This document shows, piece by piece, positions 16,741-35,306 of a stretch of DNA of 64,000 nucleotides (position 1 is its first letter; each line of letters starts with the position of its first letter). Source of the DNA: Syntrophomonas sp. DTU019 (GTDB lineage: Bacteria > Bacillota > Syntrophomonadia > Syntrophomonadales > Syntrophomonadaceae); contig CAJYDM010000001.1 in assembly GCA_913757435.1 (NCBI GenBank), positions 248,001-312,000 of the forward strand. The letters run 5' to 3'. The position numbers and the translations under genes were made by a program. The notes beneath the pieces were generated by a model, which searched no databases, was not told the origin of the DNA, and saw only the letters and a list, made by a program, of their open reading frames with translations.

Positions 16741-17457
16741 CTATAATCCCAGGTAGGCCTTTTTAATGTGAGGGTTGTTGAGTAGTTCAGTTGAAGGACC
16801 ATCCATTGTAATAAAGCCGTTCTCCAGCACATATCCCCGTTTGCTTAGGCCAAGCGCTTTCTTGACATTTTGTTCCACCAAGAGAACTGTAATATTTTGC
16901 TCACTTATTTTCCTGATGGTCTCAAATACGGTTCCTGCCAGCAGGGGAGATAATCCCATGGACGGCTCATCCAGCATCAAGAGACGTGGCATTGCCATCA
17001 AGGCTCTTCCTATGGCTACCATTTGCTGTTCGCCTCCACTCATGGTGCGGCCGATCTGATCCTTACGTTCTGCCAGCCGGGGCAGCAGTTCAAAAACATA
17101 TTCCAGGTTCTCTTTGACCTTGCTGCGAGAGCGGGGCAAGGAAGCCCCGATCAGGAGGTTTTCATAAACTGTCATCAGTGGGAACAGCCTCCTGCCCTCT
17201 GGAACCTGAACAATACCCAATGCAGTGATCTTATGAGGTGGAAGATGGTCGATTCTATAACCATCAAGCCATATTTCACCGTTATTAGGAGTGATTATCC
17301 CGGAGATAGTATTGAGGAGGGTGGTCTTGCCTGCACCATTGGCACCGACTATGCTTATTACTTCCCCTTCTTCAATGTTTAAGGAAATATCTTTTAGAAC
17401 CGTTACATCACCATAACCGGAATTTAATTGTTTTATGCTAATCATTGTCATATTCAT
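16741..17457 (-). CDS. livF: Branched-chain amino acid ABC transporter ATPase LivF
   Basis: About 238 residues. Walker A 'GANGAGKTT', signature 'MSGGEQQM' and Walker B 'LLMLDEPSMGLS' are all present, and the C-terminus is the short LivF-type end. It hydrolyses ATP to power import together with LivG. Several ATGs lie close together at the start (17457, 17451, 17445); the exact one is uncertain. The start overlaps livG. It is the last gene of the livKHMGF operon. Confidence 0.92.
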   Translation of the reverse strand: MNMTMISIKQLNSGYGDVTVLKDISLNIEEGEVISIVGANGAGKTTLLNTISGIITPNNGEIWLDGYRIDHLPPHKITALGIVQVPEGRRLFPLMTVYENLLIGASLPRSRSKVKENLEYVFELLPRLAERKDQIGRTMSGGEQQMVAIGRALMAMPRLLMLDEPSMGLSPLLAGTVFETIRKISEQNITVLLVEQNVKKALGLSKRGYVLENGFITMDGPSTELLNNPHIKKAYLGL

Positions 17458-18166
17458 CACCCAAATATGCTTTAATTACCTCAGGATTGCTGGTAACCTC
17501 CTGAGGGCTTCCCTCGGCTATCTTCCTGCCGTAATCCAAGACCACAATACGGCTGCAAATTGCCATGGTGGCCTGTAAAACATGTTCGATCATCATTATG
17601 GTGATCCCATCTTCATTGATAGATTTGATTAGTTTAATCGCCTCTTCGAGTTCTGTAGGATTTAGTCCTGCCAAAACCTCATCTAGAAGCAGCAATTGGG
17701 GATTGGTCGCCAGGGCTTTGGCCATCTCCAGTCTTTTTCGTTCTGGAATGGTTAGGTTGTGTGCCAAAACGTTTTTCTTGGCTTGTAATCCCACCTTTTC
17801 CATAATATTGGAAGCAATCTGTCTAGCCCCCCGAGGGCTGGAGGTTTTAGCAAAGGCGCCAACCATAATATTCTGCTCTACGGTCATGTTGCCGAAAGGT
17901 TTAACCACCTGGAAGGTTCGCCCTATTCCTTTGTGGCATACCTGATAGGGCTTCAGGCCAGTAATATCCTCACTATTGAATAAGACTTTCCCAGAAGTCG
18001 GTTGATAAACCCCGACAATGAGGTTAAAAGCGGTAGTCTTACCAGCTCCGTTGGGGCCGATCAAACCGAGGGCTTCGCCTTCCTCAAGATGCATATTGAG
18101 ATGATTAACTGCTGTGAGGCCGCCAAATTTGATGGTTAAATCTTTAAGCTCCAGAATCTTTGACAC
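17438..18166 (-). CDS. livG: Branched-chain amino acid ABC transporter ATPase LivG
   Basis: 242 residues. Walker A 'GPNGAGKTT', a LivG-specific long loop ('GRTFQVVKPFGNMTV'), a degenerate signature around 'LTIPERKRLEMAKALA' (LivG proteins carry a variant of LSGGQ), and Walker B 'LLLLDEVLAGLNP'. It overlaps both neighbours, livM and livF, consistent with coupled translation. It pairs with LivF at the membrane permeases LivH/LivM. Confidence 0.92.
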   Translation of the reverse strand: MSKILELKDLTIKFGGLTAVNHLNMHLEEGEALGLIGPNGAGKTTAFNLIVGVYQPTSGKVLFNSEDITGLKPYQVCHKGIGRTFQVVKPFGNMTVEQNIMVGAFAKTSSPRGARQIASNIMEKVGLQAKKNVLAHNLTIPERKRLEMAKALATNPQLLLLDEVLAGLNPTELEEAIKLIKSINEDGITIMMIEHVLQATMAICSRIVVLDYGRKIAEGSPQEVTSNPEVIKAYLGDEYDND

Positions 18167-19169
18167 CGCTTACACCTCCTTCTACGGTTTTAGGGCCAGA
18201 AAAGCGCTGCACTATCTGTCCCAGCAGGGCCACTATTCCCCTGGGCTGATACATGATAACCAGCAAAACGATTACTCCATAAATGAATAGATGCAAGCCC
18301 ATCAATTGACCGCCGAGATAAAACCGTATTACCTCACTTATTAGTGAAAGCAAAATCCCGCCAATGACTGGACCTAATATGGTGCCTGAACCGCCTACAA
18401 TACTCAGGAACACCATCTGCGTTGACATGCTGCCGCCGGCAATGGCGTTTGGTTCCAGATAGCGGATCAATACAGCATAGAACACCCCGCCTAATGCAGT
18501 CATAAAGGCGCTGATCATAGCGGCAATCAATTTGTTGTTGCGCACGTTGATTCCCATGGCTGCTGCCGCGTCCTCATCTTCTTTCAGAGCGATCAGACAG
18601 TAACCCAGCTTGGAGGTTTTTATCCAGTACGATACGGCAATGACCAAAAACAACATGAACAGAATTAAATAATAATAGGGAATTTTAGAGCTAAACTGCA
18701 AGGCTGCCGCTGAATCACCCACCATTTTCACGATCAGCCCTTCAGCGCCGCCAACCGAGAATGGCCCCAGTTCATGAGTGCTGTTAATAATAACCACGAT
18801 TCCTTCGGAAATGGCTACCGTGGCAAGAGCGTAATAAGCGCCGCGCAGGCCGAAAGTTGGAAACCCGATCAGCACACTGATTAATACCGCGGCCGCCCCG
18901 CCGACGAATAAACCTAACCAGGGTGAAATACCGAAAGTATTAAACAGCATCATAGTCACATAAGCGCCGGTGGCGGTGTATATCCCGTGTCCCAATGACA
19001 ACTGCCCGGCAAAACCGCCAATAATGTTCCAACTTGAAGCCAGATATGCCCACAACAGACACATGATAATAACATGGAGAAAATACGGCCTGGTAACCAT
19101 CATCGGAACCAGAAGCAGGATTACCACCAGACCAATTAATAATAATAATTTTTTATCGAACTTCACCAT
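18144..19169 (-). CDS. livM: Branched-chain amino acid ABC transporter permease LivM
   Basis: About 341 residues with 8-10 membrane helices. 'NIIGGFAGQLSLGHGIY' near residue 50 and 'LGYCLIALKEDEDAAAAMG', the cytoplasmic coupling-helix region, are LivM hallmarks. A TTG gives a slightly longer form starting at 19181 inside the livH stop region. The sequence around the ATG has GGTGAG very close, so the exact start is unsure. It forms the channel with LivH. Confidence 0.9.
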   Translation of the reverse strand: MVKFDKKLLLLIGLVVILLLVPMMVTRPYFLHVIIMCLLWAYLASSWNIIGGFAGQLSLGHGIYTATGAYVTMMLFNTFGISPWLGLFVGGAAAVLISVLIGFPTFGLRGAYYALATVAISEGIVVIINSTHELGPFSVGGAEGLIVKMVGDSAAALQFSSKIPYYYLILFMLFLVIAVSYWIKTSKLGYCLIALKEDEDAAAAMGINVRNNKLIAAMISAFMTALGGVFYAVLIRYLEPNAIAGGSMSTQMVFLSIVGGSGTILGPVIGGILLSLISEVIRFYLGGQLMGLHLFIYGVIVLLVIMYQPRGIVALLGQIVQRFSGPKTVEGGVSGVKDSGA

Positions 19170-19174
19170 CTCAC

Positions 19175-20056
19175 CTACCAATCATAACGGGAGCCAAACA
19201 TTCCTGAGGGCTTGACAAAAAGCACCATGAGGAAGACGGCGTATACCAGAACCACAGTCAGAGTGGCAGTCATATACTGGGCTCCGATGGACTCGATCAA
19301 ACCAATTAAAATGCCGCCTAGAATGGCACCCGGTACACTTCCCAATCCGCCTAGAACTACCACGATAAAAGCTTTGGTCATAAAAACCTGTCCTACCGAG
19401 GGATGCACATAATAGAAGGGAATTAAGGCTACAGCAGCAACCGCCAGCAATGCCGTCCCCAGTCCGAAGGCAATGGCAAACGTATTGGGTACATTTATGC
19501 CCATCAAGGCGGCTGCATTGCGGTCCTGGCCGGTAGCCCGGATATTGCGGCCAGTTTGAGTTCTTTGCAAAAATAGCCAAAATACCCCGGCGACAACTAA
19601 AGCGATAATCAATCCATAAAAACGTGCCGCACTTACCGTGACCGCCCCCAGAGCGATGGTTTGCTCAGAAAAGCTAGTTTTGGCCATAACATAATCGGCA
19701 CCAAAAATCATCAAGGCTAAATTTTCCAAAACTATAGCCAGTGCTGCGGTCAAGAGCAATACACTAACCGGTTCGCGCACATTCTTTTCTGAATCAAGCA
19801 CAGGCCTGACTAGAAAACGTTGACACAGGTAACCCACTACAAACATGATTGGCCCAACAATAAGGATCAGGATTAAAGGGTTTAGTCCGGTTAGTTTCCA
19901 CAACCAGTATGAAATCATCATGGACAACATCAACAAAGCGCCCTGGGCAAAATTAATAATTTTCATGATACCAAATATCAGGGTCAGGCCCAGTGCAATA
20001 AGGCCATATATAGCTCCCATACTAAGACCGTTGGCGACAACTGACATAAATCCCAC
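19175..20056 (-). CDS. livH: Branched-chain amino acid ABC transporter permease LivH
   Basis: 293 residues. 'GLIALGLTLIFGIMKIINFAQG' spans the conserved first LivH helices; 'TGRNIRATGQDRNAAALMG' is the coupling region. The substrate class (Leu/Ile/Val or other carboxylates) cannot be fixed from the sequence, and some LivKHMGF-like systems import aromatic or short-chain organic acids. Confidence 0.9.
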   Translation of the reverse strand: MGFMSVVANGLSMGAIYGLIALGLTLIFGIMKIINFAQGALLMLSMMISYWLWKLTGLNPLILILIVGPIMFVVGYLCQRFLVRPVLDSEKNVREPVSVLLLTAALAIVLENLALMIFGADYVMAKTSFSEQTIALGAVTVSAARFYGLIIALVVAGVFWLFLQRTQTGRNIRATGQDRNAAALMGINVPNTFAIAFGLGTALLAVAAVALIPFYYVHPSVGQVFMTKAFIVVVLGGLGSVPGAILGGILIGLIESIGAQYMTATLTVVLVYAVFLMVLFVKPSGMFGSRYDW

Positions 20057-20139
20057 TTAGGTTTACACCCCTTTCCAATCGGGAGGAGGGGGGAGATTGA
20101 CCAGGGTGCGGTTAATCTCCCGCCCATCTCAGGGTAGAA

Positions 20140-21405
20140 TTACTTGCCTGCACCCGGGTATGGCCATACTATATGGGAGCCAACTCGAGCCTCTTCTTGC
20201 GGCCAAACAGTAATACGTTCCATTTTGCCATCGACCTTCTGATACTGGCAAATTACTATGGGGGCATTTATCATTTGACCGGTTTCGTCAAATTTAGTTT
20301 GGGCCGCATACATCTGGGTCACGCCTTGGTTAATATCCGTCGCTGCCAGAGCTTCCCGAATCTTTTCGGGTTCAGCGGAAGCGGCTCTTTCCAAAGCATC
20401 TGCTATTATATACATGCCTACATAGGCTTTTACCGCCTCAGCATTCATGGCATAGCCATATTTTTCTTTGAACTTATTATTAACATCTTGGGATGAGGGA
20501 CGGTTGACATCGGGTTCCCAGGTTGAAATATCGAAATAGTACTCACTGGCATTACCGGCCAGGTCGTAGTAGGTAGGATCGGCAAAACCGCCGCTGGTGC
20601 CGATAAATGCCAAGGGTTTAACCTGGTGTTCAGCAAAAGTCTTGGTTAAAAGGGCTGCGTCAGATACATAAGAAACCATCATTATGATATCAGGTTTGAG
20701 CTGTTTAGCTTTCAGCACTACCGGTGTAAGGTCTGAAGAGTTGGTCGGATACGGTTCTTTCATAACGATTTCCAGACCAGCTTCAGGCAGGTATTTTTCC
20801 CAGGCCTTGACTGCACCCTGGCCCCAGGCAGTATTTTCATATATCAGGCCAACGGTTTTTACTGGTGTGCCGTATGTTTTCGCCATCTCGGTAATGAATT
20901 TGGTCTGGTCACGATTACGCCAACTAGTCTTTTCGGCAAGACGGAAGACATATTTAAAGCCGCGTTCTGTGATTTTATCTTCAGAAGGTACATCAACAAA
21001 ATAAGGAACCTTATACCGCTCGGCAACCTCAGTGGATGGCATGGCAACTCCGCTCTGATAACATCCGGTTAAGAGTGCTACCTGCTCCATGGTGATTAAA
21101 CGTTCGGCTTCAGATACGCCTGTAGCCGGATCGCCTTTGCTGTCCGCATAGATCATTTTAATCTGGGCACCGCCAATTGACTTGATACCGCCGGCGGCAT
21201 TAATTTCTTCAATCGCCATATCGCGTGCCTGCTGGCCGATTTTTCCCAGAGGGGCGGCTGAACCGGATAATGGCAGTATCGTACCTATCTTAATTTCTTT
21301 AGCTTTATCAGCGCTATTGCCTCCGCCGCCGCAGCCTGCAACCAGAGAAATCAACATAACCATTGTTACCAACAAACCGATAAACCTGGTACCTCTTTTT
21401 TTCAT
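20140..21405 (-). CDS. livK: ABC transporter substrate-binding lipoprotein (LivK-like)
   Basis: 421 residues. The N-terminus is a lipoprotein signal with lipobox 'LVAGC' near residue 25, followed by Gly/Ser linker. The mature protein is a type I periplasmic-binding fold of the LivJ/LivK family ('IKIGTILPLSGSAAPLGK', then 'LLTGCYQSGVAMPSTEVAE'). It is the first gene of the liv operon with GGAGG upstream. The ligand may be branched-chain amino acids or another small acid. Confidence 0.9.
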   Translation of the reverse strand: MKKRGTRFIGLLVTMVMLISLVAGCGGGGNSADKAKEIKIGTILPLSGSAAPLGKIGQQARDMAIEEINAAGGIKSIGGAQIKMIYADSKGDPATGVSEAERLITMEQVALLTGCYQSGVAMPSTEVAERYKVPYFVDVPSEDKITERGFKYVFRLAEKTSWRNRDQTKFITEMAKTYGTPVKTVGLIYENTAWGQGAVKAWEKYLPEAGLEIVMKEPYPTNSSDLTPVVLKAKQLKPDIIMMVSYVSDAALLTKTFAEHQVKPLAFIGTSGGFADPTYYDLAGNASEYYFDISTWEPDVNRPSSQDVNNKFKEKYGYAMNAEAVKAYVGMYIIADALERAASAEPEKIREALAATDINQGVTQMYAAQTKFDETGQMINAPIVICQYQKVDGKMERITVWPQEEARVGSHIVWPYPGAGK

Positions 21406-21493: not shown

Positions 21494-22054
21494 TATTAGA
21501 CAAGCAGAGGGGCCTACCGGCGGACAACAGCATTAATCCATGGCATTTTACCCATCCACTCATTTTTTGGAAGGGACTATGAATCATCTACCAATACTTG
21601 TGTCGATTACAATTTGTTACCCTTCACATACATTCACAGTATTAATGCAAGCAATATGCCATTAAACACTTACGGGTTTCTTACGCAATATTTGTGATTA
21701 TAATAACAATTATCTAACTACATTGACCCATTTTTGGTTCATATAAATCATGTTTTAACCGACTTTATTCCCATAATTACGGATTTATAGGCGAGTGATT
21801 CATTTTGTGTTCACCATTTGAGTTTTGAACCGTTTTTGGGTCAGTTATTAATTTAAACGGATTTTTATGGCTTTTCTGTATTTTGTAAACCAAATAAGGT
21901 TTGTCTAAATAAATGATTTGCCGCACATCTTCAGGGTACGAAAATCACCTAATCCTCTAGGAATCGGCCATAAACCCGTTATCTTTTTATCAAAATTGAA
22001 GTAATTTAAGTTATACTCACCAGCTAGCAATTGCATATTAACTGACAAACAATT
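21494..22054. other. AT-rich intergenic region, nothing recognised
   Basis: Lies upstream of the livK promoter candidate and downstream of the CoA-transferase cluster. No supported open frame. Enhancer sites for a sigma-54 activator could be here but no clear palindrome was found. Confidence 0.35.
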
Positions 22055-22097: not shown

Positions 22098-22835
22098 TTA
22101 CTTGAATTCGAACCCCAATATATTATTGGGATCAACCAGTTTCAGAGCTCTCAGTTCTTCTTCGGTAGGTGGATCCATTACCGGTACGTTTGTCTCATCT
22201 ATTTGCCACCCGGTGTTTTCTTTGACCTCTTCGAGTGTGGTGTACGGGAAAATAGTGTGAACCTTCAAATATTTCTCACCTGCTGGCTTCTTGAAGATGC
22301 ACAGGGTGGTTATTACCGTGAACTCCTTGTTCACATCCGGTGAGGTGGTGGCGAATTCAACATGTTCCACAAATGTGCGTTTATCATGCTGTGGCTTCCA
22401 GATGATGGTCTTCTTAGTCACCGGAGTCAGGGTAGCGCTTCCGGCCCCTCCCGGTCCTCTCAGTTTGGGGTTGTCGTAGGTTCCACCCAGATAAGACATG
22501 GCGATACGCCCGCTTTTATCCATCTGTAAGCAGGATAGGAAGGCGATGTCACCTTTGCCGGAGGAATAAAGGTCAAAGATTTCATCCAAACCGAATGTGG
22601 CTACTGAACCCTCATAGGTGTTAGCGGTCAAGGTTGATGCTACCGTGGGCGGTTTGAGATAGTCATGGTCTACTCCATCGGACAAGGTGAGATAGGTGAA
22701 GGTTTTACCCATGGCCTTGGCGGCTTTCATGGCCACCATGGGGGTTGAGGAAGCCAGGCCGTGAAATACGATATCACCATCGGATATTGCTCTCATGATG
22801 GCAACAGCCATCATTTCAGGTTTTCCATATTCCAT
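22098..22835 (-). CDS. CoA-transferase-fold B subunit lacking the catalytic Glu (ctB2)
   Basis: 245 residues, clearly related to glutaconate-type CoA-transferase B subunits and to ctB1 in the same cluster ('GKPEMMAVAIMRAISDGD' against the 'MMAIATGREFSDGE' of ctB1; both end in a 'NTGW' plus 'PTEEEL/PTEKEL' block). At the place where ctB1 has the catalytic-type 'TEGG', this protein has 'LSDG', so the glutamate that forms the CoA thioester in class I transferases is absent. This recalls IpdB, whose complex IpdAB is a ring-opening hydrolase rather than a transferase. It follows the UGA-containing A subunit by 3 bases. The assignment of a hydrolase-like reaction is inference. Confidence 0.85.
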   Translation of the reverse strand: MEYGKPEMMAVAIMRAISDGDIVFHGLASSTPMVAMKAAKAMGKTFTYLTLSDGVDHDYLKPPTVASTLTANTYEGSVATFGLDEIFDLYSSGKGDIAFLSCLQMDKSGRIAMSYLGGTYDNPKLRGPGGAGSATLTPVTKKTIIWKPQHDKRTFVEHVEFATTSPDVNKEFTVITTLCIFKKPAGEKYLKVHTIFPYTTLEEVKENTGWQIDETNVPVMDPPTEEELRALKLVDPNNILGFEFK

Positions 22836-22838
22836 TGC

Positions 22839-23660
22839 TTAAAGCCTCCCTTCCAGCATCGAATCAGCATATTGCGGGACTTGACCCTCTTTTACAGCCT
22901 TCTGGTAGGCCTTGTGTTTAGGCCATTCCACAGCCTGGTATTCGGGGTAGCATATACCCGGCTTGGCCCCTCCAGGCAGTTCCACTACTGCTTCTACCAG
23001 GAAGTGAGGAACCGCTGTCAATTTAGGTTCTTCTTTCATACGGTAAGTTCCCACAATGCGCTCAGTGGTGACAATGGTCTTCTTAGCCGCTCTGGCCATC
23101 AGCGCATCTTGATAACTGGGGCCGAGTATGCGGCAGTTGCCATAAATATCGGCTTCCTGAACGTGGATGATAGCATAATCAGGCACCAAGGCCTTGACGC
23201 ATACCACTTCAGTGCCATCGAAGGGGCTCTTGACGACCTGGAAGAATTCAGGACGTTTGGCCACCAGATCACTTCCCCACATACCACCTACTGGAAGGAA
23301 TGGAACACCATAAGCTCCCGCACGGAGAGCGTGAATCATGGCCGTTCAAGAGCCTTCAATGGCCTTGGCTTTGGGATTATCACCTTCCATAGACTTGCGC
23401 ATTCCAGGGGCTAATCCAGCTTCGTTTTCCAGTCCAAAAAACCCGAAGTATGCTGTGTCAGCCTGAAAGCTAGCGAATAGAATGTCCGAAGCCAGACCCG
23501 GGGCAGCTCCACAAACCTTAAGTTCTTTAACAGGTTTCTTGGTCAAAGCCAAGGAAAATATGGATGGCGTACGGTGCATACCGTTGCCGCCTATGGCTAG
23601 TAACATACCATCCTTAATCAGATCAGCGGCCTGACTAAGTGACATAGTTTTGTCATACAA
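22839..23660 (-). CDS. CoA-transferase-fold A subunit with in-frame UGA, candidate selenoprotein (ctA2)
   Basis: Read through one TGA (23346-23348), this frame gives 273 residues, a normal A-subunit length. Residues 1-104 are the N-terminal half ('SLSQAADLIKDGMLLAIGG'). After the TGA the frame continues unbroken: 'TAMIHALRAGAYGVPFLP' matches 'IPNRLFGGAMGWPFVP' of ctA1, and 'HVQEADIYGNCRILG' matches 'HVTMADIYGNCIMLG'. The downstream ATG at 23339 has no good ribosome binding site. A SECIS-like hairpin starts 15 nt after the UGA. The predicted Sec is residue 105, three residues after a Glu in 'IEGSU' that falls near the Glu region of IpdA-type subunits. The alternatives are a nonsense mutation or an assembly error. 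It is followed by ctB2. Confidence 0.75.
23314..23330 (-). promoter_or_regulatory. Candidate bacterial SECIS element in ctA2
   Basis: On the minus strand a 6-bp stem GCTCTC/GGGAGC (one G-U pair) closes a 5-base loop CGTGC. The loop's second base is G, 23 nt after the UGA, inside the 16-37 nt window used for bacterial SECIS searches. CAC/GTG and CCAT/ATGG can extend the stem with bulges. Confidence 0.65.
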
Positions 23661-23698
23661 TTGATTTCCCTCCTTAGAAATAGATTTTTAACGATTAG

Positions 23699-24994
23699 CT
23701 AGGCTTTCTGGGGTCTTTTCTGCGTAAACATAACCGCCACAGCCACAACCAGAGCGATCAGGCAGAACATAAAAGCTGATCTGAATCCTGAAGAAGCTAT
23801 GATCTTGTTTACTACCGGTGCCTTCGCAATGATTATGGAAGTAATCTGTTGGAAGGTTGCCCCGCCAACAAAAACGAAAGTGTTTAAGAACCCTGTTGCG
23901 GTACCTTGTACTGCAGGTTCAACATTTTCTTTAAGGTTGCCATACATTACCACAAACCAGCCGTTAAAGAAACCATAAAGGAACATCAACACGCTGATGG
24001 TGCCTTTGGAAAGAGAATCGACCATAAATACCATGGGAAGCCACACCAGAATGGAACAAATCAGCCCCAAAACTACGACCTTCCACTTGGATTTGAGCAC
24101 CTTGTCAGCGATTATGCCTGATAAGGGGCATCCAAAAACCATTCCCAAGGCCACCAGGCTTATAATGCTGCCTGCTTCGGATTTAGTCAGACCATAGACA
24201 TTGATCAACCAGGGGCTGGCCCACAAGCCCTGGAAGGCCATAATGGTGCCATACCAGATGAAGAAAGCAATAATTATGGTCCATACATTCCAACTTGAGG
24301 CAGACATTCCGATAGCCTGGCCGATTGAATAGGTAGAAGATGCCTTCGGCTCCGGGCGTCCTTCAATCTGCGCCGGGGTGGCTCCGCCCACTTCACCAGG
24401 CTTATTGCGAATAATCAGATAGGCCAAGACCGCGACCGCTATGGAAACCACACCTACTGAAGTCATGGAGGCTCTCCAGCCGATCCCTGCCATCAGCGCC
24501 ACTAAAGGGGCTGCAGCGGCCAGTGCGCCCACATTGCCCACTGCCAGGAGAATGCCGGAGTAAGTAGCAAACTCGGTGGATTTAAACCAGTCTGCCAAAA
24601 ATCGCATTGCCGGAACATAGACAAAGCCTACGCCGAAACCTACCAGAAAACGCCCTGCCAGCGCCATGTTGAAAGATCCAGCAGCGGCGAACAAAAGCGC
24701 ACCTGCACCAGCCACTGCCATAAATATCGCCAAGGTACCCCTGATGCCAATACGGTCAGCCAGGATGCCGGCCGGCAGCTGGCCTAGAGCGTAGGCCCAG
24801 AAGTACATGGAGCCAAACAGTCCCAGGCTGGAGGCACCGATATTAAAAGCGGTGGTTAATTCCGGAGCCATAACGGAAGGCGACACCCGGTGGAAATAAA
24901 CAAAGAAGTAGGCGAGGGCTATCACCAGGAATATAACATAGCGATAGGACATGGTTTTCTGGACTGCTTGGGGTGAGAGATTGCTGTTATCCAT
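23699..24994 (-). CDS. Major facilitator superfamily transporter
   Basis: 431 residues with 12 predicted helices. 'QLPAGILADRIGIRG' is the conserved MFS loop 2-3 motif (D-R-x-G-x-R type), and 'GFGVGFVYVPAMRFLADWF' is typical of the sugar-phosphate/organic anion permease branch. It lies between two CoA-transferase-like pairs in one transcription unit, so it probably imports the acid that the cluster activates or exports a product. The substrate is unknown. The spacing to ctA2 is 38 bases. Confidence 0.85.
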   Translation of the reverse strand: MDNSNLSPQAVQKTMSYRYVIFLVIALAYFFVYFHRVSPSVMAPELTTAFNIGASSLGLFGSMYFWAYALGQLPAGILADRIGIRGTLAIFMAVAGAGALLFAAAGSFNMALAGRFLVGFGVGFVYVPAMRFLADWFKSTEFATYSGILLAVGNVGALAAAAPLVALMAGIGWRASMTSVGVVSIAVAVLAYLIIRNKPGEVGGATPAQIEGRPEPKASSTYSIGQAIGMSASSWNVWTIIIAFFIWYGTIMAFQGLWASPWLINVYGLTKSEAGSIISLVALGMVFGCPLSGIIADKVLKSKWKVVVLGLICSILVWLPMVFMVDSLSKGTISVLMFLYGFFNGWFVVMYGNLKENVEPAVQGTATGFLNTFVFVGGATFQQITSIIIAKAPVVNKIIASSGFRSAFMFCLIALVVAVAVMFTQKRPQKA

Positions 24995-25078: not shown

Positions 25079-25873
25079 TTATTTCTTGCGCAGTGAACCG
25101 GTTTCGTCCACAGCCCTCAAATTTTCCAGCTCTTTTTCAGTTGGTTCAGGGATCATCTTGACATTTGGTGATACTTTCAGGTCCCAGCCGGTGTTTTCGA
25201 TAATCTCTTCAACTGAGGAGAATACGAAATAGCTGTCCAGATAGAACTCTTTGGTTACCGGATCGGGTCGCAATATTCCCAGATTGGTTACGATTGCACT
25301 GGGTCCGCCTCCCGGAAAACCGTACTTTTTCCTGTCATCACCGCCGTTGATATAGCCCGGGGAAGAAATGTAGTCAACCTTTTCAGCAAAGCGTTTCTTT
25401 TCGTGTGCTGCCATAATGATATACTTTTTGGCTCCGACCGCGATCTCATTGGCTCCGCCGCTGCCATTCAAACGGACTTTGGGCAGAGTGTATTTACCTA
25501 CTTTCCATGGCTGAGTCCCTTCTGTCCATATCCCCGTAGTATTAACGTTGCCGAATTTGTCTATTTGAGCCGCTCCTATAACGGCATTGTCAACTCTTCC
25601 GGAGGCAACCAGCATACCCAAGGCATCAATGGCATTAGTAAAACTGGTGGCATTAGCTGAAATGCGGTTGTCTTCAATACCCCAGGGCAAGCCGCCGACC
25701 GGGGTCGATCCATAAACACCGCCTTCGGTAAAGGCTATCATGTTGGGAGCGTGGTTTCTCTGTGCAAAGAAACCAGCCAGCATGGAGAGACCCACTCCGA
25801 ATATTGCCAATTCTCCGTCACTAAATTCACGTCCGGTGGCAATAGCCATCATTTCATTTTTTGAATAATCCAT
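25079..25873 (-). CDS. Glutaconate-type CoA-transferase B subunit (ctB1)
   Basis: 264 residues. It keeps the class I CoA-transferase glutamate motif as 'AFTEGGVYG' near residue 49, and the Gly-rich 'LNGSGGANEIAVGAKK' region. It pairs with ctA1, which starts the pair 4 bases upstream. Class I enzymes move CoA from a donor thioester to a free acid through an enzyme-bound glutamyl-CoA. The acid substrate cannot be read from the sequence; the GctAB likeness suggests a di- or unsaturated carboxylate. Confidence 0.87.
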   Translation of the reverse strand: MDYSKNEMMAIATGREFSDGELAIFGVGLSMLAGFFAQRNHAPNMIAFTEGGVYGSTPVGGLPWGIEDNRISANATSFTNAIDALGMLVASGRVDNAVIGAAQIDKFGNVNTTGIWTEGTQPWKVGKYTLPKVRLNGSGGANEIAVGAKKYIIMAAHEKKRFAEKVDYISSPGYINGGDDRKKYGFPGGGPSAIVTNLGILRPDPVTKEFYLDSYFVFSSVEEIIENTGWDLKVSPNVKMIPEPTEKELENLRAVDETGSLRKK

Positions 25874-25877
25874 GTTA

Positions 25878-26861
25878 TTACCTCCCTCCCATCAATTCCT
25901 TGATTTCAGCGTCACTCTTGATCCATTTGCGATAAGGATCCACCAGGAAATTGGTGGCGGACTTGCATAGCTGATCAACCTTTTCTTTACCAATAACATC
26001 CAGGAATTCTTCGGGAGTGCTGTAGGATTTGACATATTTGTCGATGTATTCGACGGTGCCTTCCTCGGTCTTGAGAAGCTTGTTCATATAGAACATATGC
26101 TCTTCGTCGCTGTCATAGACACCTGTGGAACAAGCCGGCCAAACGCCCATAGGCCAATAAACCACAGCGTCAACGACCAGATCGGGGATGCGAACCAGGT
26201 TGGGGAATTGCCGCATGCAGTCGGTATCCACGATATAATCGGCCTGGATTACGACCTTTTTGGCAGCGCGGGAAAGTTCGAAACGGCTCCATTCGGTGCC
26301 AAGCATAATGCAATTCCCGTAGATATCGGCCATGGTGACATGGATACAGGCGACCTCCGGATTCAGGGACTTCATAGCACCCATGGTGACTCCGGTAAAA
26401 GGATCTTTAATAGCGGGAATTTTCTTATCATTTGGATAGGTGTCAGGTTCATCTGCGGAAGCCCAGGCTTGGTCTGAACCCCAGCTTACAAAGGTAGGAA
26501 CGAATGGCCATCCCATGGCGCCACCAAACAGGCGATTAGGTATACCACCGTTAGAATAGTCTTCAAGAATGGTTTTTCCACTTTCAACAGCTCTCTTTAG
26601 CCCATTGGCAAAGCCATAAACTTCAAGGCCGGAAAATCCGACTTCCATCCTGGCCACACCACCGGCTGCTGCTAATAGATTGGAACCTTGCGTATTGCAG
26701 TTAGAGATCAGGTTTACGTTCTTAACTCCCTGGCGGACCATTTCACGGAAAAAGGCAATACAGTCGGAGCCGACCGGCAATGCGCCACCGTGGGCAAAGG
26801 TCATACCGTCCCAGGTATATTGAGCAACTGCTTCCTGCATGGTGATCAACTTGTTTTTCAA
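25878..26861 (-). CDS. Glutaconate-type CoA-transferase A subunit (ctA1)
   Basis: 327 residues, similar in size to GctA. 'AVAQYTWDGMTFAHGG' starts the fold, 'LFGGAMGWPFVP' is the CoA-site strand, and 'CIHVTMADIYGNCIMLG' is a family block shared with ctA2. It starts with TTG behind AAGGGAGGG. It has a C-terminal extension of about 60 residues relative to ctA2. Together with ctB1 it should form the active transferase of the cluster, activating an organic acid for oxidation; the pathway is inferred. Confidence 0.87.
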   Translation of the reverse strand: MKNKLITMQEAVAQYTWDGMTFAHGGALPVGSDCIAFFREMVRQGVKNVNLISNCNTQGSNLLAAAGGVARMEVGFSGLEVYGFANGLKRAVESGKTILEDYSNGGIPNRLFGGAMGWPFVPTFVSWGSDQAWASADEPDTYPNDKKIPAIKDPFTGVTMGAMKSLNPEVACIHVTMADIYGNCIMLGTEWSRFELSRAAKKVVIQADYIVDTDCMRQFPNLVRIPDLVVDAVVYWPMGVWPACSTGVYDSDEEHMFYMNKLLKTEEGTVEYIDKYVKSYSTPEEFLDVIGKEKVDQLCKSATNFLVDPYRKWIKSDAEIKELMGGR

Positions 26862-27067: not shown

Positions 27068-27934
27068 TTATTCCTTAACCAATCCTTTACTTTTAAGTAA
27101 AGCTGTCGGAGAATTGAATAGTTTATTTATACCCAATTGACCCGGTTTATACCCAAAAGCCAGGCCCATCAATTGAGTAAAATAGATAATAGGCATTCTA
27201 AAGTCCAGACCCATGGCTTTTTGCCGCATATCCAGATTACCCTGACACATCGGGCAGGCCACTACAATAGCGTCTGCTCCGGCTTTCTTGGCAGATTTCA
27301 GTACCTGCCCGCCCAGATCCAATACGATGTCAGTGTCAGAGGCGGCATATCCCCCGCCGCAACACTCCGCTTTGTGTCCCCAGGTAACAGTTTCGGCCCC
27401 CAAGGCTTTCAACAGATTGTCTAATGATACCGGCTGTTCAGGATCATCGAATTGCACCACCTTCTGCGGACGGGTTATAAGACACCCATAGTACGCAGCC
27501 ACACGCAATCCTCGCAACGGTTTGACCACCTGCTGCGCTATGGCTTCCAGTCCGGTTTCTTCCACAAGCAGCTGCAAAAGATGCTCTACCTCTGGTTTAA
27601 CCGGGGCCGGAGACTGCAACATTTGTTCTACTTCGGCCTTCATGTGGGGATTATTGCGGATCTCATGCGAAGCCGTCTTGAGCCGGCTGAAACATCCGGC
27701 GCATACTGCCATCACCTTGTCCATTTTCATATCCTCCGCAATGCTGAGGTTTCGGGCTGAAAGGCCTACCGCCAGCGAGTGATCAACGGAGTGAGCAGCG
27801 GTGGCGCCACAGCAATTCCAATCCTCAATTTCCTGCAAATTAATATTCAGATGTTTGCATACCAGACGGGTGGACATATCATATTCTTTTGACATGGAAT
27901 GCAGTGAACACCCCGGAAAATATGCTACATTCAT
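27068..27934 (-). CDS. HdrB-like CCG-domain protein (second copy)
   Basis: 288 residues with two cysteine-rich CCG domains: 'YFPGCSLHSMSKEY' and 'DWNCCGATAAHSV' in the first half, 'AAYYGCLITRPQK', 'AECCGGGYAAS' and 'ACPMCQGNLDMRQKAMG' in the second. In HdrB these bind noncubane [4Fe-4S] clusters that handle disulfides. It overlaps hdrC2 by 4 bases (ATGA). With hdrC2 it forms the second C-B pair of the module. The in vivo substrate is unlikely to be the methanogen heterodisulfide. Confidence 0.88.
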   Translation of the reverse strand: MNVAYFPGCSLHSMSKEYDMSTRLVCKHLNINLQEIEDWNCCGATAAHSVDHSLAVGLSARNLSIAEDMKMDKVMAVCAGCFSRLKTASHEIRNNPHMKAEVEQMLQSPAPVKPEVEHLLQLLVEETGLEAIAQQVVKPLRGLRVAAYYGCLITRPQKVVQFDDPEQPVSLDNLLKALGAETVTWGHKAECCGGGYAASDTDIVLDLGGQVLKSAKKAGADAIVVACPMCQGNLDMRQKAMGLDFRMPIIYFTQLMGLAFGYKPGQLGINKLFNSPTALLKSKGLVKE

Positions 27935-28530
27935 TCTGCTACCCCCTTTTGGCCAGGCTTCGGTCTGAACAGCCTTTTGACTTTATCCATCCTTTTGACC
28001 CGGGCCGGAATCGGGTTGAGTTTTCCTTTGAAAAACATCTGCGGTCCCAGTTCAGCATTATTAAGATACTGTTTAGACTTAAGATTGTAATTTAAAATTA
28101 GATACAGTTCGGATACTCGCCCAATTTTCTGCACTTGATCCAGCATCAACTCATGGAACAGCTTCACATTTGGCCTGGTTGGAACTATACCCCGGTCAAT
28201 AGCCCTTTCGCGCAAGTAATCTATAATGCGGGGAATGTCGATCCCCGAAGGGCAGCGATCCACGCACAACTGGCAGGCCACACAGCACCACAATGCGTCC
28301 ATTTGCAGCAGTCTATCTTCATTGCCAACCTTGATCAACTGCACGATTTTACGCGGCGTATAATCAAATATATGGGTATTGGAGCATCCACCCGAACATT
28401 TGCCGCATTCCAGGCAGCGTTCGATTTCCACACCGCAATTTTGCAGTATCTCCTGGCTCAGGCTATTGCTCTGCTCATCCAGCTGCAGAGCCTTAAAATA
28501 CTGGTTAACTGGTGAGGTTGTTGCATTCAT
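27931..28530 (-). CDS. HdrC-like 4Fe-4S protein (second copy)
   Basis: About 199 residues. Two [4Fe-4S] ferredoxin motifs are visible: 'CLECGKCSGGCSNTH' and 'CVACQLCVDRCPSGID'. It is the electron wire between HdrA and HdrB in Hdr complexes. The start at 28530 is chosen because GGAGG lies 8 bases upstream; two codons further upstream a GTG is also in frame. It follows hdrA by 13 bases. Confidence 0.87.
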   Translation of the reverse strand: MNATTSPVNQYFKALQLDEQSNSLSQEILQNCGVEIERCLECGKCSGGCSNTHIFDYTPRKIVQLIKVGNEDRLLQMDALWCCVACQLCVDRCPSGIDIPRIIDYLRERAIDRGIVPTRPNVKLFHELMLDQVQKIGRVSELYLILNYNLKSKQYLNNAELGPQMFFKGKLNPIPARVKRMDKVKRLFRPKPGQKGVAE

Positions 28531-28543
28531 CAGCACTTCCTCC

Positions 28544-29581
28544 TTAATCGGCCTGATTCAACACGGCCATAGCCTGCGCGGCTGCAGCCGCCCCCTGCTG
28601 CAGAGCCCCTAGAGTCTCCACCGCAAAGCCGCATGATCCGGCCAGAAATACGCGTTCTTGGACCTTCACTGCCTGGAATGGCTCGGGCTCTATAAACCCG
28701 TAAGCATCAGTTTCCAGTCCGAACATCTCGGCCATCTCGGTAGTCCCCCGGCTGGGGCGTATGGCTGCTGCCAGGACGATGTAATCGGCTCTAACTTCAA
28801 TTGGGACCCCCATCAGGGTATCTTCGCAGCGTATCAACAAGCGGTCATCTTCCGGCAGAACCTTGGCCGGGCGCCCCCGCACATAACGGACGTGTTTATC
28901 TTCTATCACCGAACGCACAAACTCTTCATACTCTTTCCCGCTAGCCCGGTAGTCCATGTAGAACACATAGCTCTTGGCCTCCGGAAGCAGATCTTTGACC
29001 AGACCGGCCTGCTTGGCGGAATACATGCAGCAGATCTTGGAGCAATACGGATACCCTTTAGAACGGTCTCTTGAACCTACACATTTGAAAAAGGCCACCA
29101 CCGGTGGTTTTTCCGGTTTCTTTCCTGCTGACCATTCCTTTAATACGGCTTCAAATTCCAGTGAATCGTAAACATTTGGGAAGGCCCCATGGCCGTATTC
29201 ACCATATCCTGATAAATCCATCATCTCAAATCCGGTGGCAATAATTACTGCACCTACCTGAAGCTCTTCAACTGCTCCGTTAATATTTTTAATTTGTACC
29301 TGGTAACCATTTTCAGTCTTCTGGCAGCCGATGACGGTGCTTTCCAATAAAACCTTAACTGAAGCACTCTGCTCAAGGTCCTTTATCCGCGGCTCTACAA
29401 ACTTGACCGGGTCCTCCCAACGAGGAAAACTGCTGGCCAACTGATTGAGGACTCCGCCCAGACGGTTGCTCTTTTCAACCAGCACCACAGGATACCCAGC
29501 CTGACCCAGCATGCGAGCCGCCTCGATCCCGGCTGCTCCCCCTCCAATTACCAGTGTTGTTTGCTCTTTATGAACTCCCAT
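28544..29581 (-). CDS. HdrA-like flavoprotein (short form)
   Basis: About 345 residues. The FAD-binding 'VIGGGAAGIEAARMLG' and 'GGVLNQLASSFPRW' begin the protein; the 'FFKCVGSRD' and 'YCSKICCMYSAKQA' cysteine motif of HdrA follows near residue 165-195, and the second FAD motif 'VFLAGSCGFAVETLGALQQG' ends it. It lacks the N-terminal and C-terminal ferredoxin domains of methanogen HdrA and the Cys/Sec in the segment after the first FAD motif, so it resembles the small HdrA of sHdr-type complexes. It probably links two C-B pairs to a flavin. The start at 29581 has GGAG 8 bases upstream. Confidence 0.87.
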   Translation of the reverse strand: MGVHKEQTTLVIGGGAAGIEAARMLGQAGYPVVLVEKSNRLGGVLNQLASSFPRWEDPVKFVEPRIKDLEQSASVKVLLESTVIGCQKTENGYQVQIKNINGAVEELQVGAVIIATGFEMMDLSGYGEYGHGAFPNVYDSLEFEAVLKEWSAGKKPEKPPVVAFFKCVGSRDRSKGYPYCSKICCMYSAKQAGLVKDLLPEAKSYVFYMDYRASGKEYEEFVRSVIEDKHVRYVRGRPAKVLPEDDRLLIRCEDTLMGVPIEVRADYIVLAAAIRPSRGTTEMAEMFGLETDAYGFIEPEPFQAVKVQERVFLAGSCGFAVETLGALQQGAAAAAQAMAVLNQAD

Positions 29582-29584
29582 CAC

Positions 29585-30535
29585 TTAAGCTCCTTTCCCC
29601 AATCCAATTCGCTCCAAAACGCCTTCCATGGGAATGGTGTTGGCTGCAAATCCTAATTTGTCAAGATCAATACCCATTGCCAGCCCAATCAATTGACCAA
29701 TGTCAATAACGGGGATATTATACGGCCCGAACCCTCTATTCGCCAGGGCCACCTGTTCCCGGTCCAGGGCAGTATTGCAGCCTGGACAAGTGGTGGTCAT
29801 AAGTTCCACTCCCTCTTCTTTGGCGCTGTCAAACTTACGTCCCAAATGCGGTTGTACCACGCTTTCTTTATGCGTAAAACCACGTCCCACCGAATAGCCG
29901 CAGCACATTCTGCGTTCCTTGTAAAATACCGGGGTGGCTCCCAAGGCTTCGTATATCTCTTCATGGAAAGTAGGCAGATCACCATCGTCTAATATCTCAT
30001 ACTGCTGGGCCAAATAATGGCAGCCATAATGGCTGGCGATACGCAAACCATTAAGGGGGCGAACTACTTTGGCCCGGATTTCATCCAGGAGCAGATAATA
30101 CAGCTCTTGAACGTGGCGTATTCTAACCTTGCCTTGATACTCAAAACCCCATTGCCCGACTATATCATTTGCCATCTTCATGTAGGCGGGGTGGTGTTTC
30201 AATATATGAGACAACTCGGTATTGTACCCGAAACAGCCATTGCAGAAACAATACATATCCAGCCCGGCATATCTTTGCTCCACAATGGAAAGATTGCGGG
30301 CAGTAACCGCCAGTGAAGGTTCGGGAGTATGCCCTGAACAGGTTAGAATATAACCTGAACAACAGGTCTGGTCAGAGTCCATAACCACTTCTATATCTAG
30401 CTTTTTCAAGACTTCCTTTATAGCGCTCTCGGTTCCCGGATATTCCATACTGCCGGTACAGCTGCGAAAAAGGAACAATTTCTCCGGTTTGGTACCCAGG
30501 CGCTCTTGAGGTGTGATCACCCTGGGACTATTCAT
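29585..30535 (-). CDS. HdrB-like CCG-domain protein (first copy)
   Basis: 316 residues. Two CCG-type regions: 'LFRSCTGSMEYPG' with 'DQTCCSGYIL', and 'SHYGCHYLAQQYE' with 'RRMCCGYSVGRG' and 'TCPGCNTALDREQ'. It overlaps hdrC1 by 8 bases. It differs from hdrB2 by a longer N-terminus and altered motif spacing, which suggests the two HdrB copies have different partners or substrates. The cluster chemistry is taken from the family. Confidence 0.87.
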   Translation of the reverse strand: MNSPRVITPQERLGTKPEKLFLFRSCTGSMEYPGTESAIKEVLKKLDIEVVMDSDQTCCSGYILTCSGHTPEPSLAVTARNLSIVEQRYAGLDMYCFCNGCFGYNTELSHILKHHPAYMKMANDIVGQWGFEYQGKVRIRHVQELYYLLLDEIRAKVVRPLNGLRIASHYGCHYLAQQYEILDDGDLPTFHEEIYEALGATPVFYKERRMCCGYSVGRGFTHKESVVQPHLGRKFDSAKEEGVELMTTTCPGCNTALDREQVALANRGFGPYNIPVIDIGQLIGLAMGIDLDKLGFAANTIPMEGVLERIGLGKGA

Positions 30536-31121
30536 TTACAATTCTCCCTTCCAGATAGCTCAAGCGCAACGGCTTCTGCTCAGAATCCTGAAGCTTCTCC
30601 ATAAACTCTCTAGCTCCGGTTTGTTCAAAAATGGCCTGATATTGAGCTTTAGCCTCATCTGATACTGTCGGCCAGGGTTCTGCCCCAACGCCCGTTCTGA
30701 GGCGCCCAATTTTTTCTATACCTTTCTGCCCAGGCACAAAGGTTAGACCGTGATCAAAAGCTTTAAAAACGAATTTGTTTATGCCGTTTACATATTTCTG
30801 CCCGTATCCATTTTCCAAAGCCATATAGCGCAATTGCATCATCAACAGGGGATAATTAATGTCCACCGGGCATACCCGATAGCAATTGGCGCACCAAAAA
30901 CAGCGCCAGATCTCCTCACTATCCAGCAGGCGAGTTATACTGCCTGATAAAACGTCATTAATAATCGCTCTGGGATTGTATGAGGGAGTGATGGCTGCCA
31001 CCGGGCAATTGCCTGTGCACTTACCACACTGCAGGCATTGCTCCAAATTCTCCACCAGGTGGTAGCGATCCACTTTGTGAATTAGTTCGGGATCCCATTC
31101 CCGGTCATGCTCTCTAGGCAT
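30528..31121 (-). CDS. HdrC-like 4Fe-4S protein (first copy)
   Basis: About 197 residues and the first gene of the catabolic cluster. Two [4Fe-4S] motifs: 'CLQCGKCTGNCPVAAI' and 'CFWCANCYRVCPVDIN'. An ATG two codons upstream is too close to GGAG; the ATG at 31121 has it 8 bases away. Order on the message is hdrC1-hdrB1-hdrA-hdrC2-hdrB2, the C-B-A-C-B arrangement that recalls sHdr operons. A sigma-54 promoter lies about 60 bases upstream. Confidence 0.87.
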   Translation of the reverse strand: MPREHDREWDPELIHKVDRYHLVENLEQCLQCGKCTGNCPVAAITPSYNPRAIINDVLSGSITRLLDSEEIWRCFWCANCYRVCPVDINYPLLMMQLRYMALENGYGQKYVNGINKFVFKAFDHGLTFVPGQKGIEKIGRLRTGVGAEPWPTVSDEAKAQYQAIFEQTGAREFMEKLQDSEQKPLRLSYLEGRIVNE

Positions 31122-31180
31122 TTGCATCGCTCCTTTATTATTTGGGAATATTTATTTTGGTCGATCTATTGTCACTAGTT

Positions 31181-31196
31181 TGCATAAACCATGCCA
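31181..31196 (-). promoter_or_regulatory. Sigma-54 (-24/-12) promoter of Hdr/CoA-transferase cluster
   Basis: The minus strand reads TGGCAT-N5-ATGCA with exact -24/-12 spacing (GG and GC ten bases apart), 60 bases before the hdrC1 start. The nearest upstream gene on the same strand, past an insertion sequence, is a sigma-54 activator, which supports the call. Confidence 0.7.
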
Positions 31197-31243
31197 ACTC
31201 ATACAAAGCCCTATATTTCACAAACCCAGCAATAATGACAATT

Positions 31244-33482: not shown

Positions 33483-35306
33483 TTATGCCATAGGCAGTCG
33501 GGGCTCGGGCCGGGAGGGTTTGCCGTCAATATTTAAAGCCCTCATTTTATAATACAGGGTGCTGCGCGGGATCCCCAAGAGCTGCGCTGCCTTGGCCTTG
33601 TTATATCTGGTCTGCTGCAGGGCCTGGGTGATGGCTGCCCGCTCATGCTGATCCATGATGTTATCCAGTTGTGAGGTGGCCGCTTCCAGTACATGCCGGC
33701 TGTGACTCACAGAGCTTTTCTCTACACCTTGTAAGACATCCATTACCCCTGCTTCCTCCAGGGAAAGAGCGGTAATATAATCGTCCTCCATCAGTATAAC
33801 CACACTCTCCAAGAGGTTTTGCAACTGTCGTACATTGCCGGGCCAGTGGTAATCAGTCAGCAGTTTCAGAACCTCACGGTCGATGCCCTTGATATTACGT
33901 CCATACTCCATGCCTAATTTGCGCAGGAATAATCTGGTCAGGCCAGGAATATCATCCCTGCGCTCCCTCAAAGGCGGTATCTCCAGGACTACGACACTCA
34001 GCCGGTAATACAGATCACTGCGAAACAATTTCTCTTCTACCAGTTCGGCCATGTTGCGATTGGTGGCAGCTATAATACGCACATCGGCGTTAATGGGAGA
34101 AGCCCCCCCCACTCGGTAAAAACGCCGTTCTTGCAATACCCTTAGTAATTTGGCCTGCATTTCTAGTGGCAGTTCGCCAATTTCATCCAGAAACAGAGTT
34201 CCTTCATTAGCCAATTCGAACTTACCGGCTTTTCCCTGCCGATTGGCCCCGGTGAATGAGCCTGATTCATAGCCGAACATTTCGCTTTCAAAAAGGGTTT
34301 CAGGTATAGCGCTGCAGTTGATCTCTATATAAGGGTTTTTGGCCCGTTTACTGTGGTTGTATATCACCTGGGCCATAATCTCTTTTCCAGTGCCGCTTTC
34401 ACCCTGTATCAATACCGTGGCGTCTGTAGCAGCCACCCTCTTGGCCTGCTGCAATACCCGCCGGGTTTCAGGGTTGACAGTGTAGAATGGTTCATCCCCT
34501 AATATATCCTGAGTTTCAATTATGCGCTCCAGCTTTCTTACTTTAACCTGGGCATTTTCTAGTCTATCTATCAACCGGCGGATATGACTGACATCCAGAG
34601 TAGTGCAAACCGCACCCAAAAAAGCTTGGTCAGAAAAAACCACCGGCACTGCGTTACGAATTACGTATAATCCATTATTCAGTTCGGTAAGTACATGTTG
34701 ATAGGACTGCCTATTGTTAATGACTTTTAAAAGCAGATCGTCAGGGAAAAAATCCTCTAGTTTACGGCCGATTATCTTCGCAGCAGGCACATCAAACAGC
34801 CTTTCGGCGCCGGTATTCCAGAAATTGACCCGACCGTCGCAGTCTATAACCTGAATACCTTCGGCTATGTTTTCCAGAACTGCGTACATATGCTCACCCA
34901 GCATCTCCAGCTTGGAAGAAAAGCCGTTACAGACATCGCGGGCAGTGAGGATGCCTACCACTTCGCCTTTTTCGTTAAGCACCGGAAGGCGGCCTATGTT
35001 CCTGGACCGCATGATGTCACGTGCTCGAGTCAAACCTTCATCTTGAGTAGTTGTAATGGTTGGGTGGCTGCACAGGCTTCTTATGGGAATGCCTTGAGGC
35101 AATCCATTAGTGACGGTCCGCACCAAGGTTTCTCTGGTAACCAGGCCCATAAATACCCCTTCATCATCGACCACCACCACTTCTCCCCAGTGGTTCTTAA
35201 GGATCTGGTCCAGGACGTTTTCCACATTTTCGTCATGTTTGACCAGCCCATAGTCCTGTGTCATGGCTTCCCCAACACACAAATCAGTTATGCGCAAATC
35301 TGGCAT
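33483..35306 (-). CDS. Sigma-54-dependent transcriptional activator with CBS and PAS domains
   Basis: 607 residues. In order: two CBS motifs (about 5-115), a PAS sensor (about 130-240, '[21 protein letters not shown]'-type start), an AAA+ ATPase (about 285-515) with Walker A 'GESGTGKE', the sigma-54 contact loop 'GSFTGA' and Walker B '[10 protein letters not shown]', then a Fis-type helix-turn-helix (about 555-590, '[21 protein letters not shown]'). It drives transcription from -24/-12 promoters, here most likely that of the Hdr/CoA-transferase cluster just downstream. CBS domains often bind adenine nucleotides or CoA esters; the signal is unknown. It is cut off from its probable target promoter by the IS. 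Confidence 0.92.

Follow-up and report, generated by a model that had tools for sequence, protein, structure and literature searches.

Does the in-frame UGA of ctA2, a gene for a CoA-transferase-fold A subunit in Syntrophomonas sp. DTU019, mark a broken gene or encode selenocysteine (Sec), and what would selenium do in such a protein? The window, the whole stretch of DNA analysed here, spans 64,000 nucleotides of this genome. The features that define the gene are:

22839..23660, minus strand: ctA2, predicted full-length A subunit of CoA-transferase fold with Sec, 273 aa, translated from a TTG
23346..23348, minus strand: in-frame UGA, the putative Sec105, with the TTG at 23658-23660 as codon 1
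23668..23675, minus strand: Shine-Dalgarno sequence of ctA2, AAGGAGGG, read from the sequence

An earlier note had described a single TGA at codon 105 in an otherwise intact 273-codon frame and proposed that it is read as Sec. Re-reading the frame bore out the first part: positions 22839-23660 hold 273 codons and a stop, and the TGA is the sole interruption. Both halves of ctA2, on either side of the TGA, match Pfam CoA_trans and are under purifying selection (low dN). A GGAGG equivalent to the ctA2 Shine-Dalgarno sequence was found in 15/15 orthologues. The internal ATG that follows the UGA (23337-23339) is not conserved among the Sec-type homologues. Since an ATG, GTG or TTG lies within nine codons after the UGA in only 10 of the 34 Sec-type genes, a separately translated C-terminal half is unlikely.

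The C-terminal half of ctA2 was then used as the query against 101 genomes. Fifteen close orthologues were recovered besides the window, 14 of which extend past the site, and these 14 and the window all carry TGA there (15/15). Sixteen loci, with TGA in all, came from a scan of 84,980 species genomes; they include metagenome-assembled genomes labelled Syntrophomonas, Desulfosporosinus and Pelotomaculum. A phylum-wide search and its follow-ups raised the total to 34 distinct TGA sequences, many of them from metagenome-assembled genomes, with identity to the window down to about 35%. The Sec codon is TGA in 34/34 distinct Sec-type genomes from several Bacillota families and TAA or TAG in none. 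The viral contigs searched yielded no relatives. The ctA1 paralogue also contains stops in two genomes (G018:C289:13124-13786 and G050:C207:1864-2691), which are perhaps assembly errors or decaying copies. As these are TAG and TAA, respectively, random assembly stops look different from the TGA of ctA2.

The residues that occupy the Sec column in other homologues were also compared. Cys, encoded by TGT, stands at exactly this column in three homologues (L076, L077, and L079), Glu stands there in nine homologue sequences, and the canonical paralogues mostly have Asn or His. A reading in which Cys homologues do not exist was ruled out by the three TGT sequences of the phylum-wide search. The presence of Sec (UGA) in 34 relatives and of Cys in three, which the earlier note had expected if its reading were right, supports Sec at this site. 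A homologue tree built after removing the Sec column separates the Sec, Cys and Glu sequences (support 90) from those with Asn or His, and places two Cys sequences as sister to the 25 type I Sec proteins (support 94). The deep joins of this tree are uncertain because of long branches. The genomes with the Cys form have selA too, so this form is not explained by missing Sec machinery.

Downstream of the UGA lies the hairpin that the earlier note had drawn with a 5-base loop, at exactly the coordinates it gave:

23314..23330, minus strand: bSECIS hairpin GCUCUCCGUGCGGGAGC, with six pairs and the 5-nt loop CGUGC, the loop lying 21 nt downstream of the UGA

The window's own fold is mildly unusual at the hairpin (z -1.5), and an extended lower stem seen in it was dropped as not conserved in relatives. 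A hairpin of this kind is found at the same place in 34/34 TGA homologues. The rule applied (6 bp, loop start 21-23 nt after the UGA) has a background of 243/4494 codons (5.4%) in 15 neighbouring genes, and 9/40 sense homologues satisfy it. In 15 orthologues, third positions are nearly fixed at codons +6 to +10 (Ala-Leu-Arg-Ala-Gly) while the flanking ones vary, and a whole-gene scan ranks these codons above every other five-codon window for conservation. The second-highest separate peak is found at the 3' end of ctA2, adjoining the start of ctB2. Across 19 aligned sequences, the six pairs are intact in 100% of cells, two pairs are changed on both sides with five compensatory cells, and the covariation is stronger than in any shuffle or slid control. 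The proposed hairpin is thus upheld by its conservation in 34/34 genes, its covariation and its frozen third positions.

At the same distance after the UGA, the Sec genes of type II have a hairpin of different sequence, GCGCUCCAGGCUGGAGCG, and those of type III have GGACUGCGGGCCGCAGUCC and GGGCUGCGGGCCGCAGCC. Across the Sec genes, the loops are CGUGC, GUG or GGC at 21-23 nt, the stems have 6-8 bp, and the minimum free energies of 28-nt segments range from -8.1 to -16.5; taken alone, the 17 nt of the window's hairpin fold less stably (-6.9). The mean folding energy is -10.4 in Sec genes versus -4.3 to -6.5 in the sense groups (Mann-Whitney p 3.5e-10, uncorrected for relatedness). The hairpins of the Sec genes satisfy published bSECIS constraints (PMC13188914). 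An Rfam search on the ctA2 gene gave no match at the hairpin, and family RF00031, which had no match in any control genome, was uninformative. These observations bear on whether the UGA is a real stop, produced by a split gene, a pseudogene or a sequencing error. Standard gene callers would indeed see two ORFs here, but a TGA at this very codon in each of 34 genomes with no conserved start afterwards, the low dN in both halves, the frozen hairpin, and the Cys and Glu homologues that have no stop make a true stop very improbable.

The window's genome holds all four selenium genes that the earlier note had named, selA, selB, selC and selD. selA lies next to selB, tRNA-Sec follows at a distance of about 9 kb, and selD, which itself contains a TGA, is nearby. 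In the first set of 16 genomes, selD exceeds the cut-off in 16/16 and selB is present in 16/16 (15 hits above the cut-off plus one fragment at a contig edge); selA was found in 6/6 further Sec genomes tested. TGA serves as a normal terminator in this genome, and 6 of the 33 window ORFs of at least 200 aa end in it. Reassignment of UGA to a standard amino acid in this lineage would fit an in-frame UGA alone. These terminating TGAs, the tRNA-Sec, and a column filled by Cys, Glu, Asn or His, not Trp, leave it hardly any probability. On this comparative evidence, UGA 23346-23348 very likely encodes Sec, as the earlier note had suggested and as the selenium genes, the Sec/Cys column and the covarying, conserved hairpin support. 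ctA2 looks like a gene broken by a stop and is very probably read through with Sec.

The AlphaFold2 model of full-length CtA2, with Sec given as Cys, has a pLDDT of 93.4. In this model, residue 105 opens helix 105-117 immediately after strand 99-102. The nearest solved structure is IpdA (TM 0.89), followed by GctA and AibA. An ungapped count from the PF(L/I)P motif places Sec105 on Glu105 of IpdA, a Gln of GctA and a Gly of AibA. The HMMER alignment to IpdA has a two-residue gap next to the Sec site, so the match to Glu105 rests on the ungapped count and on the MAFFT-aligned Glu homologues. The earlier note had put Sec near the active site, beside a Glu thought to match IpdA. The location stood and the Glu did not, for it is Sec itself that falls on the catalytic Glu105 column. 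An active-site role for Sec105 is highly probable. IpdA/IpdB is the COCHEA-CoA hydrolase (PDB 6co6, 6co9, 6coj, 6con), and its catalytic residue, replaced in the E105A mutant (6coj), likewise belongs to the A subunit. CtA2 differs from IpdA in having Sec in place of Glu105, in its gene neighbourhood and in its anaerobic Bacillota hosts, and the two share 27% identity.

The B subunit next to ctA2 and the paralogous pair in the same operon are encoded as follows:

22098..22835, minus strand: ctB2, partner B subunit without the CoA-transferase Glu, adjoining ctA2 in the loci examined
25079..25873, minus strand: ctB1, B subunit that keeps the catalytic Glu (FTEGG)
25878..26861, minus strand: ctA1, canonical A subunit with Asn at the Sec column

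In canonical CoA-transferases of this class, a Glu of the B subunit carries the acyl group. CtB1 has this Glu in all the loci examined, whereas no B subunit paired with an examined Sec, Cys or Glu A subunit does; the CtB2 orthologues read LSDG, ITGG or IAGG, with no Glu at or beside the transferase column. The alignments indicate a consistent swap, in which an A subunit with Asn goes with a B subunit with Glu, and an A subunit with Sec, Cys or Glu goes with a B subunit that has none. By family and fold, CtA2 belongs to the Class I CoA-transferases, and it shares Pfam PF01144 and overall fold with glutaconate CoA-transferase (GctA/GctB, 1poi). However, the B subunit of that class has the catalytic Glu, which GctB keeps, and GctA has Gln at the Sec column; the true counterpart of GctA/GctB is the ctA1/ctB1 pair of the operon. 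Because CtB2 has lost the transferase Glu and its paralogue CtB1 keeps it, CtA2/CtB2 is probably not a CoA-transferase.

Sec could instead stand in for Glu as the acyl carrier of a true CoA-transferase, through an acyl-selenoester intermediate. Such an enzyme would agree with the family fold, and acyl-selenoesters are chemically feasible. It is nevertheless improbable given the canonical pair already in the operon, the loss of the carrier Glu from B, and the use of Glu at this A-subunit column by a hydrolase in IpdA. A decarboxylase like AibA/AibB (3-methylglutaconyl-CoA decarboxylase; 5mzw) has the B subunit in its favour, since AibB is the closest relative of CtB2 by sequence (E about 1e-20) and by fold and both have lost the transferase Glu. 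Against the proposal, AibA has Gly at the Sec column, and mutants of Cys56, a residue of AibB, retain activity (PMC7756340). With such mutants and that Gly, the AibAB reaction seems to need no nucleophile, which would make Sec pointless, and this reading has little chance of being correct. CtA2/CtB2 is probably an enzyme of acyl-CoA chemistry, with its active-site group relocated to the A subunit and turned into selenium.

The remaining genes of the operon, and its putative regulators, are:

23699..24994, minus strand: MFS importer (organic anion type)
27068..27934, minus strand: hdrB_1, two-CCG heterodisulfide reductase B-like protein
27931..28536, minus strand: hdrC_1, 4Fe-4S HdrC-like protein
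28544..29584, minus strand: hdrA-like flavoprotein, 346 aa
29585..30535, minus strand: hdrB_2, two-CCG HdrB-like protein
30528..31127, minus strand: hdrC_2, 4Fe-4S HdrC-like protein
31181..31197, minus strand: putative sigma-54 promoter TTGGCAT-N5-ATGCA before the operon, a consensus match only
33483..35306, minus strand: sigma-54 activator (CBS-PAS-AAA-Fis), whose gene accompanies the operon in relatives

Most genomes share the order sigma-54 activator, hdrC, hdrB, hdrA, hdrC, hdrB, ctA1, ctB1, MFS, ctA2(Sec), ctB2. A second arrangement does without ctA1/ctB1 (L084, L085), and a third without ctA1/ctB1 and MFS (L086). Hdr genes lie beside the type I Sec genes in most loci whose contigs reach far enough. 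No Hdr genes neighbour the Sec genes of types II and III or the Cys forms. Directly after ctB2, six genomes encode a CoA-disulfide reductase-rhodanese fusion; with only six such cases, it was rejected as an obligate partner. A thiolase gene stands beside ctA2 in two genomes: in G018 (L036 11320-12510) it lies between the MFS gene and ctA2, and its relative is beside ctA2 in G024 (L044). Scans for sigma-54 promoters gave mostly chance-level counts, and only the site before hdrC_2, also found upstream of hdrC_2 in a same-genus relative (two species), was kept as a suggestion. A transposase (31451-33184) separates the sigma-54 activator from the operon in the window; in the same-genus relative L033, the activator lies about 0.26 kb upstream of hdrC_2.

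The explanation that best covers these data, and which we consider likely as a whole, is a CtA2/CtB2 enzyme with Sec105 inserted through the hairpin and SelB, selenolate chemistry, and exchange with thiols and Hdr. SelB would insert Sec at UGA 23346-23348 using the hairpin at 23314-23330. CtA2 and CtB2 would form a heteromeric enzyme of the glutaconate CoA-transferase/IpdAB/AibAB fold, with Sec105 of CtA2 as the catalytic group at the N-terminus of a helix, in the IpdA Glu105 column, and no Glu from CtB2. An organic acid may be imported by the MFS protein and activated with CoA by CtA1/CtB1. The selenolate would then attack the acyl group, or a nearby carbon, of the activated acid. A thiol would free the selenium, giving a selenenylsulfide or a disulfide, which would exchange electrons with the HdrABC-like complex, or with the CoA-disulfide reductase where present. 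The two disulfide-reductase modules around CtA2 (Hdr and CoA-disulfide reductase) suggest the selenenylsulfide stage. A selenol-thiol redox cycle is the favoured but unproven mechanism. Coupling of this redox chemistry to Hdr draws on guilt by association and is put forward tentatively. The same caution holds for a covalent selenolate-acyl-CoA adduct that is resolved through a selenenylsulfide and exchanges electrons with a dedicated Hdr-like complex.

A non-redox role for a real Sec is the most serious competitor. CtA2/CtB2 could be a hydrolase or C-C lyase like IpdAB, in which a beta-dicarbonyl-type acyl-CoA is opened by the selenolate, as nucleophile or base, and Hdr is needed only elsewhere in the pathway. 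The shared column with IpdA Glu105, IpdA as the nearest fold, the Glu homologues on the same side of the tree, the thiolase beside ctA2 in two genomes and the missing Hdr beside Sec types II and III all point this way. By contrast, type I Sec genes adjoin Hdr in most sufficiently long loci, the CoA-disulfide reductase follows ctB2 in six genomes, and a selenol would be an expensive way to achieve simple acid-base catalysis. We regard this hydrolase or lyase as possible, at about one chance in three. If the adduct and its coupling to Hdr are real, CtA2 would represent new selenoenzyme chemistry and tie the acyl-CoA catabolism of syntrophs and sulfate reducers to Hdr-type electron flow.

ctA2 resembles known bacterial selenoprotein genes in its UGA, bSECIS, SelABCD machinery and Cys homologues. 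A 2026 review lists 119 prokaryotic selenoprotein families, its table including those of Haft and Tolstoy 2025, and has no CoA-transferase-fold family among them (PMC13188914). No selenoprotein model of NCBIfam release 20 matches ctA2, and no description of a Sec CoA-transferase was found in the literature, most subscription papers and bioRxiv preprints lying outside the search. The earlier note's statement that no described selenoprotein was known to it in the CoA-transferase family agrees with both the list and the literature searched. As judged from sequence, CtA2 is very probably a new selenoprotein family of CoA-transferase fold, with selenium in the active site. The family may have been overlooked because the closest ctA2 homologues have no Cys, while the search strategies in the literature consulted use Cys homologues, or SECIS rules together with such homologues. 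In syntrophic and sulfate-reducing bacteria, annotation is likely to have split each of its genes into two seemingly broken pieces. The family would add selenium to an enzyme fold without a listed selenoprotein, in which one active-site column takes Asn/His, Glu, Cys or Sec while the catalytic group changes subunit, and its uncharacterised operon joins acyl-CoA chemistry to Hdr electron transfer.

Several further neighbourhoods were recorded. In the window, a sigma-54-like site TGGCATATTGCTTGCA (21646-21661, minus strand) precedes LIV-type ABC transporter genes (16741-21405), which suggests that these genes may share control with the Sec operon. The type II Sec homologues L091 and L092 (G419, G290), with the motif DHTUPG, lie near adenine deaminase genes, and L091 also has a sodium:sulfate symporter family gene nearby. 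The type III Sec gene (L089) adjoins a xanthine/uracil permease. Type II and III Sec proteins are possibly purine-related Sec enzymes. Near one Cys form, L088 6919-8445 (G355) encodes a protein that combines a thioredoxin fold with a pyridine nucleotide-disulfide reductase.
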